A stretch of DNA of 64,000 nucleotides from Natronobeatus ordinarius (GTDB taxonomy: Archaea > Halobacteriota > Halobacteria > Halobacteriales > Natrialbaceae): assembly GCF_024362485.1 (NCBI RefSeq), contig NZ_CP101456.1, forward strand, positions 496,001 to 560,000, given 5' to 3'. The notes under the pieces are model-generated. The model ran no database searches. It saw only the letters and a list, made by a program, of their open reading frames with translations, and was not told the origin of the DNA. Below are positions 15,480 through 49,464 of the stretch, piece after piece (within the stretch, counting starts at the first letter, position 1; each line of letters opens with the position of its first letter). The translations under genes and the position numbers were made by a program.

Positions 15480-15601
15480 TATAGTACTCGTTGAAACGAT
15501 TTACACCCGGTCACAGCCGAACGGGCAGCCTCGGTCTCGTTGGCGAGGCTGCCCGCCAACGGTCGTGACCGGGTGTGCAATGACTTTCAACGGTTACTAT
15601 A
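15480..15601 (+). repeat. 122-bp palindromic dispersed repeat, copy 1
   Basis: Begins TATAGTACTCGTTGAAACG and ends TTTCAACGGTTACTATA, which are imperfect inverted copies. Next inwards, ACACCCGGTCAC and GTGACCGGGTGT form a perfect 12-bp inverted repeat. The centre has an 11-bp stem, GGGCAGCCTCG with CGAGGCTGCCC. No coding capacity. Copies 2 and 3 (38780-38901, inverted; 49343-49464) have exactly the same length. Just after the right end, 15602-15627 carries another related half-end (CGTTTCAACGGGTACTATA-like), suggesting a nested or deleted further copy. Confidence 0.88.
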
Positions 15602-15712
15602 TCGTACTCGTTTCAACGGGTACTATACCGGCCGACGGCAGGATCGTCCGTCCCCGGAGACCGTCCGGCTTCGACACACGATTTCAAGAACCCCCGTCGC
15701 GTCGGTTGGGAT

Positions 15713-38602: not shown

Positions 38603-39446
38603 CGGAAACTGCTATTCACTCGACCGTGACCGTGATAAGTGATTCCTGTATGAAAGTACTGTCGCGTCGATTGCTGTATCGCCCTATAGTCGCCCAGGAT
38701 ACGGTTTGGCAGCCACCGACGAACGCGATGGCTCGAGCGTAATCTCCCAGTCAGCCGGTTCCCTTCTGGGCGTCCGACCTATAGTAACCGTTGAAAGTCA
38801 TTGCACACCCGGTCACGACCATCGGCGGTCAGCCTCGTCGACAAGGTCGAGGCTGACCGCTCGGCTGTGACCGGGTGTAAATCGTTTCAACGAGTACTAT
38901 AGCGGTCAGGCGACGAACTGTGTCGTCAGTGGTTCCACTATCTGATTCTAACTGAACCCGGCTCGAGTTCGACGGCTGTCGGCGATACGTCTCCCTTACG
39001 TGGTTGCGATGCATCCGGTGCCGCAGCCGAAATCGCGTCGAAACGTTCACGAACGCCGTCGCGTTCTCCGGTGTCGATTGCAGCCACGGCCACGTCGACA
39101 TCGGTGTTTTGATCGGATACGGGGACAGTCACGATTGGCGTCGTGAACGACGAGCGTACGCTCGCCACCGACGTGATACGGACGGATTGAACGGGCGTGT
39201 GATGGGAACCCTCTGAGCACGGGCGACCAGTGGAACGCGCGAACGCTGGACACCGCCTCGGTGGTGGTCTCGTCACCTCGTCGCGCCGGTCTCGAGACGG
39301 CTGGCAACGCCCCGTCCGTCGGTTCCGAGCTCGGTCCCACCCGTTCGATTCGGTTACTGGTGACCCTGTTCGCAGTAAGAACGTTCGATTCTGACTACCC
39401 CCGCGCATAACAATTCGTCTGGCCTGAGTCACTGCAGGATGTACCA
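38603..39446. other. Long non-coding stretch holding palindromic repeat copy 2
   Basis: 844 bp without a credible gene. Apart from the 122-bp palindrome (38780-38901) the sequence is less GC-biased than its neighbours and the open frames in it have irregular codon use. It may be the scar of lost genes. Confidence 0.6.
38780..38901 (-). repeat. 122-bp palindromic dispersed repeat, copy 2 (inverted)
   Basis: Same element as 15480-15601 but in opposite orientation: begins TATAGTAACCGTTGAAAG and ends GTTTCAACGAGTACTATA. The central stem is GGTCAGCCTCG with CGAGGCTGACC, a base-pair change from copy 1 that keeps the pairing. Confidence 0.88.
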
Positions 39447-45942: not shown

Positions 45943-48900
45943 ATGGCGCAAGCGGGAAACTCCGAACTCGTCGACGCGTTCGAGCAGTTCTTCCGGAACT
46001 ACTACGACAACGAGGTCAAACAGCTTGCGCAACGGTACCCCAACGAACAGCGCTCGCTCTCCGTCGACTGGAACGACCTCTACCGGTTCGACCCCGATCT
46101 GGCTGACGACTACCTCAACCAGCCCGAACAGCTCCAGCGCTACGCCGAGGAGGCCCTCCGACTGTACGACCTCCCGATCGACGTGAGCCTCGGCCAGGCA
46201 CACGTCCGGATCCGGAATCTCCCCGACTCCGAGTCGCCCGAGATCCGTGAGATCCGCGCCCGCCACATGAACAGACTCGTGCAGGTGCGCGGGATTATTC
46301 GCAAGGCCACGGACGTCCGCCCGAAGATCGAGGAGGCCGCCTTCGAGTGCCAGCTCTGTGGCACCTTAAATCGCGTCCCCCAATCGACCGGCGACTTCCA
46401 GGAACCCCACGAGTGCCAGGGCTGTGAACGACAGGGACCCTTCCGGGTAAACTTCGACCAGTCCGAGTTCGTCGACGCCCAGAAACTCCGCATCCAGGAG
46501 AGCCCCGAAGGGCTCAGAGGGGGGGAGACTCCTCAGGCGATCGACGTCCACGTCGAAGACGACATCACCGGCGAAGTGACCCCTGGCGACCACGTCTCCG
46601 CTGTGGGCGTCCTCCGCCTCGAGCAACAGGGCAACCAGCAGGAGAAGTCGCCCATCTTCGACTTCTACATGGAGGGCATCTCCGTCGACGTCGACGAAGA
46701 GCAGTTCGAGGACATGGACATCACCGAGGAGGACAAACAGGAGATCGTCCGCCTCTCGGGTGAGGACGACATCTACGAGAAGATGATCGGCTCCATCGCG
46801 CCGGCGATCTTCGGCTACGACGACGAGAAACTCGCGATGATCCTCCAGCTCTTTTCCGGCGTGACGAAGCAACTGCCCGACGGCTCGAGGATCCGGGGTG
46901 ACCTGCACATGTTACTGATTGGTGATCCTGGTACTGGTAAATGTGTCTCGGGTGATACATGTGTGACACTGGCCGACGACCGCGAGGTGCCCATCCGAAC
47001 TCTCGTGGAATCGAACCTCGAGGATCCCAAACCGATCGATGACGGCTGGTGGGACGAGATCGATCTCGAGGTTCCATCGGTACAGGACGACGGATCGATC
47101 GCCCCACAGCGTGCCACGAAGGTCTGGAAGCGCGAGGCTCCGGATCGGATGTACCGGATTCGAACCTCGAGTGGACGAGAACTCGAGGTGACGCCGTCCC
47201 ATCCCCTGTTCGTCTTTGATCCGACTGATGGATACGAAGCGATCCGTGCCGACGAACTGTCCGTCGGGGATGGTGTCGCGGCAGAGCCCAAAGGGGGAGT
47301 CTCCGGAGAGGTTGCGGATGACGTGATTGCCGACGGTGGTGTACACCGTCGTCGGGCAACGACCGACTCGATCGTCTCGATCGAGACGAGTGAACCCGAT
47401 TACGAGTGGGTGTACGACCTCGAGGTCGAAGGCACGCACAATTACGTCTCGAACGGGATCGTCTCGCACAACTCCCAGATGCTCGGGTATATCCAAAACA
47501 TCGCCCCCCGCTCCGTCTACACGTCTGGCAAAGGTAGCAGCTCAGCTGGGCTTACCGCCGCTGCGGTACGCGACGACTTCGGCGACGGCCAGCAGTGGAC
47601 GCTCGAGGCCGGCGCACTCGTGCTCGCCGACCAGGGGATCGCGGCGGTCGACGAGCTCGACAAGATGCGGTGTGTGACGGGCGAGACACTCGTCGAGCTG
47701 GCCGACGGATCGACCGTTCCGATTCGGGACGTGGCGCGATCCCACGAGCTGGAAGGGACGATCGAACACCTCGAGAACGGTCGGACAATTCGCGACGTGG
47801 ACATCTCCGTTCGGACGATGACCGAAGACGGCGCGATCATCGAACGTCCGGTGACGGCCGTCCATCAGTACGACGCTCCGGCGGAACTGATCGAAGTCGT
47901 CACCGAAGACGGGAATCGGCTTCGATCGACGTCCGACCACCCGTTCTTCGTCTACGAGAACGGCCACGTCGTCGAACGAGCCGCGGAGCACCTCGAGCCT
48001 GGAGACGACACGCTCGCGCCACGCAGTGAGTCCATCGCTGCGACGGACGGCGGTGCCGTACTCGCCGATTCGTCGGTCGACTCGAGTCTCCGTGACGTCG
48101 AGCCACGAGAGATCGTCGAGGTCCGACGAATCGACGGCGGCGACCGGGAGTCCGTCTACGACCTCACCGTTTCCGGAACCCACAACTTCCTCGCAAACGG
48201 CATGGTCGTCCACAACTCCGAAGACCGCTCGGCTATGCACGAGGCCTTAGAGCAACAGAAGATCTCGGTGTCGAAAGCCGGCATCAACGCGACGCTCAAG
48301 TCCCGCTGCTCGCTGCTCGGCGCGGCGAACCCCAAGTACGGCCGGTTCGACCAGTACGAGCCGATCGGCGAGCAGATCGACTTAGAGCCGGCGCTCATCT
48401 CGCGGTTCGACCTCATCTTCACGGTCACCGACCAGCCCGACGAGGAGAAAGACCGCGACCTCGCAGAGCACATCATCAACACGAACTACGCGGGCGAGCT
48501 GACGACCCAGCAACGGGAGATGACCTCCCTCGAGGTCAGCACCGAGGAGATCGAGGCGATGACCGCGAAGGTCGACCCGGTGATCGACGCCGAGCTGTTG
48601 CGCAAGTACATCGCCTACGCCAAGCAGAACTGCCACCCGCGGATGACCGAGGCGGCCCGGGAGGCGATCCGGGACTTCTACGTCGATCTGCGTTCGAAGG
48701 GGACCGACGAGGACGCGCCGGTGCCCGTGACGGCGCGAAAGCTCGAGGGACTGGTTCGGCTCTCGGAGGCCAGCGCGCGGGTGCGCCTGTCGGATACGGT
48801 CGAACTCGAGGACGCCCAGCGAGTGATCGAGATCGTGCGCTCGTGTCTGCAGGACATCGGGGTCGATCCCGAGACGGGCGAGTTCGACGCGGACATCGTC

Positions 48901-49122
48901 GAGGCGGGCACCTCGAAGTCCCAGCGCGACCGGATCAAGAACATCAAGGGACTGATCGCCGACGTCGAGGAGGAGTACGACGACGGGGCGCCGATCGACG
49001 TGGTGCTCGAGCGGGCAGGGGAGATCGGCATGGACGAGTCGAAAGCCGAGCACGAGATCGAGAAGCTCAAACAGAAAGGCGAGGTGTACGAGCCGAGCAC
49101 CGATCACCTGCGGACGACCTGA
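45943..49122 (+). CDS. mcm: Replicative MCM helicase with two mini-inteins
   Basis: The full frame has 1059 residues; removing the inteins (residues 334-510 and 577-758) leaves 700, normal for haloarchaeal MCM. The N-terminal domain has a zinc ribbon (FECQLCGT...ECQGCERQ). The AAA+ part has Walker A GDPGTGK-S, split by intein 1, Walker B LVLADQGIAAVDELDKM, split just after by intein 2 (before SEDRSAMHEALEQQ), sensor 1 LLGAANPKYG and arginine finger SRFDLIF. The winged helix is at the C-terminus. It is the 3'-5' hexameric helicase of the replication fork. Both inteins must be spliced out for the ATP site to form. Confidence 0.97.
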   Translation: MAQAGNSELVDAFEQFFRNYYDNEVKQLAQRYPNEQRSLSVDWNDLYRFDPDLADDYLNQPEQLQRYAEEALRLYDLPIDVSLGQAHVRIRNLPDSESPEIREIRARHMNRLVQVRGIIRKATDVRPKIEEAAFECQLCGTLNRVPQSTGDFQEPHECQGCERQGPFRVNFDQSEFVDAQKLRIQESPEGLRGGETPQAIDVHVEDDITGEVTPGDHVSAVGVLRLEQQGNQQEKSPIFDFYMEGISVDVDEEQFEDMDITEEDKQEIVRLSGEDDIYEKMIGSIAPAIFGYDDEKLAMILQLFSGVTKQLPDGSRIRGDLHMLLIGDPGTGKCVSGDTCVTLADDREVPIRTLVESNLEDPKPIDDGWWDEIDLEVPSVQDDGSIAPQRATKVWKREAPDRMYRIRTSSGRELEVTPSHPLFVFDPTDGYEAIRADELSVGDGVAAEPKGGVSGEVADDVIADGGVHRRRATTDSIVSIETSEPDYEWVYDLEVEGTHNYVSNGIVSHNSQMLGYIQNIAPRSVYTSGKGSSSAGLTAAAVRDDFGDGQQWTLEAGALVLADQGIAAVDELDKMRCVTGETLVELADGSTVPIRDVARSHELEGTIEHLENGRTIRDVDISVRTMTEDGAIIERPVTAVHQYDAPAELIEVVTEDGNRLRSTSDHPFFVYENGHVVERAAEHLEPGDDTLAPRSESIAATDGGAVLADSSVDSSLRDVEPREIVEVRRIDGGDRESVYDLTVSGTHNFLANGMVVHNSEDRSAMHEALEQQKISVSKAGINATLKSRCSLLGAANPKYGRFDQYEPIGEQIDLEPALISRFDLIFTVTDQPDEEKDRDLAEHIINTNYAGELTTQQREMTSLEVSTEEIEAMTAKVDPVIDAELLRKYIAYAKQNCHPRMTEAAREAIRDFYVDLRSKGTDEDAPVPVTARKLEGLVRLSEASARVRLSDTVELEDAQRVIEIVRSCLQDIGVDPETGEFDADIVEAGTSKSQRDRIKNIKGLIADVEEEYDDGAPIDVVLERAGEIGMDESKAEHEIEKLKQKGEVYEPSTDHLRTT
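46942..47472 (+). mobile_element. MCM intein 1 (mini-intein at Walker A)
   Basis: 177 residues, Cys334 to Asn510 of the frame. Block A CVSGDTCVTLADD begins with the nucleophile Cys. Block B is ELEVTPSHPLFVF with the T-x-x-H splicing residues. Block F/G is VYDLEVEGTHNYVSNGIVSHN with penultimate His, terminal Asn and Ser as the +1 residue. No LAGLIDADG endonuclease domain fits in this length, so it cannot home by itself. The flanking extein codons are unusually A/T-ending. Confidence 0.95.
47671..48216 (+). mobile_element. MCM intein 2 (mini-intein after Walker B)
   Basis: 182 residues, Cys577 to Asn758. Block A CVTGETLVELADGS, block B RLRSTSDHPFFVYENG, and block F/G VYDLTVSGTHNFLANGMVVHN, again with Ser at +1. 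No homing endonuclease. Middle part is acidic (DGGAVLADSSVDSSLRDVEPREIVEV). Sequence differs from intein 1 outside the splicing motifs, so the two are old and separate, not a recent duplication. Confidence 0.95.
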
Positions 49123-49342: not shown

Positions 49343-49464
49343 TATCGTATTCGTTGAAACGAGTTACACCCGGTCACAGCCGAGCGGTCTACCTCGGCTT
49401 CGTCGACGAGGCAGACCGCCGATGGTCGTGACCGGGTGTGCAATGACTTTCAACGGTTACTATA
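49343..49464 (+). repeat. 122-bp palindromic dispersed repeat, copy 3
   Basis: Same orientation as copy 1: begins TATCGTATTCGTTGAAACG and ends TTTCAACGGTTACTATA. The central stem is GGTCTACCTCG with CGAGGCAGACC; compared with copy 2 it has one paired change and one mismatch. The right end lies about 45 bp before the TATA box of the next gene. Confidence 0.88.

Follow-up and report, generated by a model that had tools for sequence, protein, structure and literature searches.

The 122-bp palindromic unit that occurs three times in the 64,000 nucleotides analysed here (the window) is very probably a non-autonomous, near-palindromic MITE of the IS630/Tc1-mariner type which is moved in trans. The analysis established its multi-copy mobility, the duplication of TA at sites that can be compared with empty ones, a preference for CTAG, the asymmetry of the two ends and the presence of an IS630 with the same end plan. 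The kind of element is an ordinary one. Our search of the open literature, ISfinder aside, returned no prior description, and as far as that search reaches the element is undescribed.

A sequence-only reading of the window had pointed out three equal-length copies, two in one direction and one inverted, and this is borne out: each is exactly 122 bp, with copies 1 and 3 on the plus strand and copy 2 on the minus strand (Table 1). Their pairwise identities are 91.8%, 87.7% and 92.6%, and the predicted fold is in each case a single long hairpin (-65 to -76 kcal/mol). All three have the features which that reading had noted: the common ends, CGTTGAAA/TTTCAACG, and an inner stem of 12 perfect pairs, ACACCCGGTCAC/GTGACCGGGTGT. 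It had also described the differences in the central stem as mostly paired, and there are indeed two true pair changes, at columns 46-73 (G-C or T-A) and 48-71 (A-T or T-A), beside one A.C mismatch in copy 3 (columns 49-70). The subterminal GTGTGCAATGAC in the right end is the least variable part of the element across genera. The "half-end" reported after copy 1 exists, but it is a remnant with both tips and not a half; a similar tips-only remnant (28-30 bp) adjoins another full copy elsewhere (locus L006). Copy 1 lies in a divergent gap between a Usp gene on the minus strand and an alpha/beta-hydrolase gene on the plus strand. The MCM helicase gene directly upstream of copy 3 (45943-49122) carries an intein with an Intein_splicing domain. 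No transposase was seen in the immediate surroundings of the three copies.

Table 1. Positions in the window of the three MITE copies and of the parts of copy 1
Feature	Position	Strand	Description
MITE copy 1	15480..15601	+	122 bp including the terminal TA on each side (duplicated target)
MITE copy 2	38780..38901	-	122 bp; intergenic, upstream of a minus-strand SnoaL-like gene
MITE copy 3	49343..49464	+	122 bp; intergenic, downstream of the intein-containing MCM gene
Left end, copy 1	15480..15506	+	TATAGTACTCGTTGAAACGATTTACAC
Right end, copy 1	15573..15601	+	GTGTGCAATGACTTTCAACGGTTACTATA
Central stem, copy 1	15522..15555	+	15522-15533 pairs with 15544-15555; 10-nt loop 15534-15543
28-bp remnant	15600..15627	+	TATCGTACTCGTTTCAACGGGTACTATA; both element tips; TA shared with copy 1

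The unit is not confined to the window. At least 40 copies are present in the host genome, which is 4.2 Mb in two contigs; this is a lower bound, since scoring covered 40 of the 121 candidates from a first look. Nearly all copies are 121-122 bp, with E-values down to 1.5e-58. Palindromes in such numbers and with such E-values are far beyond chance. A loose search of the same genome with the 17-bp tip gave 197 matches, against 10 with the reversed pattern. The ends of the 122-bp family recur in a sister family (120-123 bp) and in shorter forms (67-103 bp). At one place (loci L013 and L014, which overlap; G000:C1:4020108-4020839) two copies stand 610 bp apart, where a local duplication probably included the element. 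The search among relatives which the sequence-only reading had proposed turned up cousins in other haloarchaea. Among the matches listed, 84 bp is the usual form in other genera, with the same ends and another inner stem and loop. These shorter cousins, mostly of 84 bp, were found in 102 of the 292 haloarchaeal genomes searched and in 30 of 77 genera; plasmid records with the 84-bp form number 61, and virtually all, if not all, are haloarchaeal (from Natrinema, Haloarcula, Halomicrobium, Natrialba and other genera). The element is thus short, multi-copy and without coding capacity, and its terminal inverted repeats pair over 17 positions, as is typical of a MITE.

Movement was followed by searching the joined flanks of ten Natrinema elements in 29 genomes of Natrinema; these elements are 84-bp cousins, and all the empty sites described here are theirs. 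Occupied sites differ from empty ones by 82 inserted bp and a duplicated TA, where the empty site has a single TA. One pair reads GGGGCCC-TA[element]TA-GAGCGG occupied and GGGGCTC-TA-GGGCGG empty, another CCGAACTGC-TA[element]TA-GTTGGACAGCG occupied and CCGAACTGC-TA-CTCCGACAGCG empty. A third Natrinema site agrees save for one indel, and one additional site fits a target of 2 bp. The target-site duplication which had been suggested as a check is present in these cousins. A tandem pair at locus L190 shares TATA, while the related locus L128 holds one element; dimers of this sort are expected from insertion into the element's own terminal TA.

The target is more than a bare TA. The flanks have C before the element and G after it, and 76 of the 111 insertion sites of the 84-bp form are CTAG, compared with 1.65% of all TA contexts in the same loci. 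In the 122-bp family 13 of 41 sites are CTAG, within a broader preference for GC-TA-GC. CTAG itself is scarce in the window (22 observed, 202 expected from the base composition) and is rare in haloarchaea generally (PMC6471742). According to Tenzen and Ohtsubo (1991), as cited in PMC2170065, IS630 prefers the TA within 5'-CTAG-3'. Insertion at TA with a 2-bp duplication and a preference for CTAG are features of IS630/Tc1-mariner elements, and the unit has them.

An extragenic palindrome could also be a transcription terminator or a protein-binding boundary which is immobile today. The elements are almost never found in genes (one lies inside an ORF), and the best plasmid places are nearly all without an annotated feature, as such a role would have it. 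Many copies, however, sit in divergent gaps where there is nothing to terminate, and presence and absence at the same site between species means movement. Empty sites and gene arrangement have already largely refuted this explanation, which we regard as almost certainly wrong.

The transposase was sought among IS630 elements. A profile search with PF13358 (DDE_3) found IS630 transposases in 19 of 41 genomes. In the host genome an IS of 1,059 bp has two overlapping reading frames with HTH_33 and DDE_3 domains (NCBIfam transpos_IS630). It has the termini TATAGTA...TTAGAA, and its right end carries ATTGCnCAC, in keeping with the end plan of the MITE. Over 36 IS630 copies, which remain of 37 end pairs once a spurious one is set aside, left and right end mostly match at positions 1-7 and 12-17, are variable at 8-11 and disagree at 18, 20 and 21; the MITE ends are likewise mostly alike at 1-7 and 12-17 and unlike at 18, 20 and 21, so that the left/right asymmetry at positions 18-21 is common to both. 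At the right end ATTGCTCAC in IS630 stands against ATTGCACAC in the MITE, at the left end CTATTTACTCA in one IS630 copy against CGATTTACACA in the MITE. When a matrix made from MITE right ends was run over 110,732 windows from 16 IS630 loci, the IS630 right ends came out on top, one true MITE aside, with scores of about 10-22 bits where the 99.9th percentile was -22. The flanks of IS630, counted by eye, are also mostly C...G.

The sequence-only reading had asked for an IS with the same ends. The host IS630 has the same plan, but an exact match was not found: none through unpaired ends in the host genome, none among the IS630 loci of 41 relatives and 125 genomes of the family, none among divergent IS630 copies and none in a scan of viral contigs. 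In nearly every copy examined IS630 has TTAGAA where the MITE has TTGAAA or CTGAAA. In view of this constant difference, and of the want of an IS with exact ends, the IS630 of the host genome is a candidate source of the mobilising transposase and no more. Some MITE-bearing genomes searched (e.g. G007) gave no match to the IS630 subgroup of the host genome. Other IS630 subgroups were rejected as end matches because their ends are different. An end beside an IS630 in genome G001 was likewise rejected as a cognate element, since it belongs to a fragment of a MITE that lies 48 bp beyond the IS. At L268:1379-1427 an IS630 copy of genome G001 stands beside a truncated MITE right end, and the IS630 has apparently inserted into the MITE. 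The most likely mover of the MITE is an IS630-type transposase encoded elsewhere in the genome, and the driver may be the host's own IS630 subgroup acting loosely or a sister which is rare or extinct.

The mechanism we propose is the following. A transposase supplied in trans is predicted to bind two similar but non-identical ends, the left one with CGATTTAC and the right one with GTCATTGC, both of which follow TTGAAA in the inward direction. If it acts like the IS630 elements that have been studied, it would excise the unit and place it in a TA, preferably that of CTAG, with duplication of this TA. We infer this cut-and-paste chemistry as well as the supplier, which would be the IS630 subgroup of the host genome or a close sister. 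The near-perfect palindrome may need no special function; the short interior would bring both ends together, and template switching between the arms during replication would homogenise the stems and flip the loops.

The last step bears on the paired changes, from which the sequence-only reading had concluded that the folded form matters, as DNA for a transposase or as RNA. The arms do not drift without pairing: 97.7% of the central-stem cells are paired. In an alignment of 38 sequences 96.1% of the cells are paired against 94.2% in shuffles, and 7 pairs show double changes against 2.6. The double changes are concentrated at the two pairs 46-73 and 48-71; the former has three types and two type changes on the tree, the latter is changed in three copies of one clade. 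The 10-nt hairpin loop is inverted in 6 of the 38 copies, by at least 3-4 independent flips on a tree built without the loop, and some inverted loops are the exact reverse complement of the loop in another copy (L027/L032, L020/L036, L024/L037). Loop inversion together with homogenised arms is a known signature of template switching (PMC8794818). Template switching makes paired changes unaided, so that they would be expected even if the fold were not under selection. As they are few on the tree and the inverted loops show template switching, they argue only faintly that the fold matters; there is strong support for a mobile element which a transposase recognises, and none for an RNA role. Two rearranged copies should be mentioned. 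In one (L226:2083-2205) everything that lies between the 12-bp inner stems is inverted, with both ends in normal order; the other (L219:5672-5791) is a hybrid which combines a left end of one sister family with a left end of the other.

The 84-bp cousins show covariation too; the RNAalifold consensus for this set is poor, and pairs were counted on a hand-written structure. TGAC is kept at the right end in 46 of 48, and subterminal variability is 1.6-3.6% compared with 17-22% in the covarying stems. The left/right asymmetry is thus kept against homogenisation, which fits a protein that recognises two distinct ends.

It could still be argued that selection acts on the folded DNA, and that the transposase, as for IS200/IS605 and REP, takes as its substrate a hairpin or cruciform formed by the element when excised or single-stranded. 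Palindromy is kept across genera despite changes in stem sequence, and outer-stem symmetry at positions 8-12 is 82% in the 84-bp MITE against 53% between IS630 ends 1 kb apart. In the 122-bp family, however, the same symmetry is only 62%, and loop inversion reveals a mutational process that rewrites the arms. As in IS630, the two ends differ, and this makes the subterminal loop asymmetric; TA duplication with terminal inverted repeats belongs to IS630 and not to IS200/IS605. We consider selection on a DNA fold quite unlikely.

Slightly less likely still is that the unit spread as a mobile element but is selected as an RNA hairpin, in a small RNA or in mRNA stability or processing, as is reported for the bacterial Correia and ERIC elements. 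The predicted fold is very stable, covariation exceeds that of shuffles in the 84-bp cousins as well, and tandem G.A pairs could arise in the internal loop CGAT/TGAC; RNase III cleaves the transcripts of Correia elements (PMC10969869), which also counts for this explanation. Against it, many copies have CGGT for CGAT and with it lack one of the two G.A partners, and template switching accounts for the paired changes, which are few. All kinds of gaps are used (44 divergent, 60 convergent, 93 tandem), and in tandem gaps 42 elements have the direction of the genes and 51 the opposite one, as counted with a simple gene finder. This random orientation argues against an RNA role, and an RNA gene was rejected on it and on the lack of any Rfam match over the elements of ten loci at the gathering threshold. 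The placement relative to genes is what one would see for a selfish element that is tolerated between them.

A broader scheme, to which we give a little more credit than to selection on a DNA fold while holding it unlikely, would see a haloarchaea-wide MITE superfamily without any gene, in which template switching keeps rewriting stems and flipping loops, the subterminal left/right asymmetry stays fixed, methylation of CTAG gates insertion, and the hairpin is also a folded substrate. CTAG, rare in haloarchaea, is likely the target of a conserved orphan methylase.

An unannotated, abundant palindrome carried by about one third of the haloarchaeal genomes searched now has an explanation, with the TA of CTAG as its target rule and IS630 as the likely driver. 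RNA biologists should be cautious: paired substitutions in a hairpin family can stem from template switching and need not imply a selected RNA structure. Inverted loops are the telltale of this process in hairpin families, and the MITE family is a clean natural example.

Among known systems, ERIC, Correia/NEMIS and RUP are high-copy intergenic elements of about 100-130 bp forming one long hairpin, and several of them insert at TA. The unit resembles them in size, copy number, intergenic setting and hairpin; sequence and host differ. Cleavage of transcripts by RNase III is known for Correia (PMC10969869). The SMR-A and SMR-B elements of Haloquadratum walsbyi are multi-copy, about 80-110 bp, with prominent inverted ends and no gene; they are reported to make no target duplication, to have ends unlike those of any transposon and, for SMR-A, to target IS605-type palindromes (PMC3119063). 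That description sets them apart from the unit, which duplicates TA and has IS630-like ends. REP/PATE elements derived from IS200/IS605 have neither inverted ends nor target duplication, and the unit has both. ISH2, MITEHsal1/2 and HqIRS of Halobacterium and Haloquadratum are, like the unit, non-autonomous and mobilised in trans, but by another transposase family; ISH2 and MITEHsal2 are about 410-520 bp and make 6-10-bp duplications (PMC10264941, PMC3119063). From the IS of the IS630/Tc1-mariner group the unit differs in having 122 bp and no transposase gene, and in TTGAAA where the local IS630 has TTAGAA. It is like IS630 and ISY100 in the TA duplication and the preference for TA in CTAG, and with the IS630 subgroup of its own genome it has in common the TATAGTA-type ends and the left/right asymmetry.
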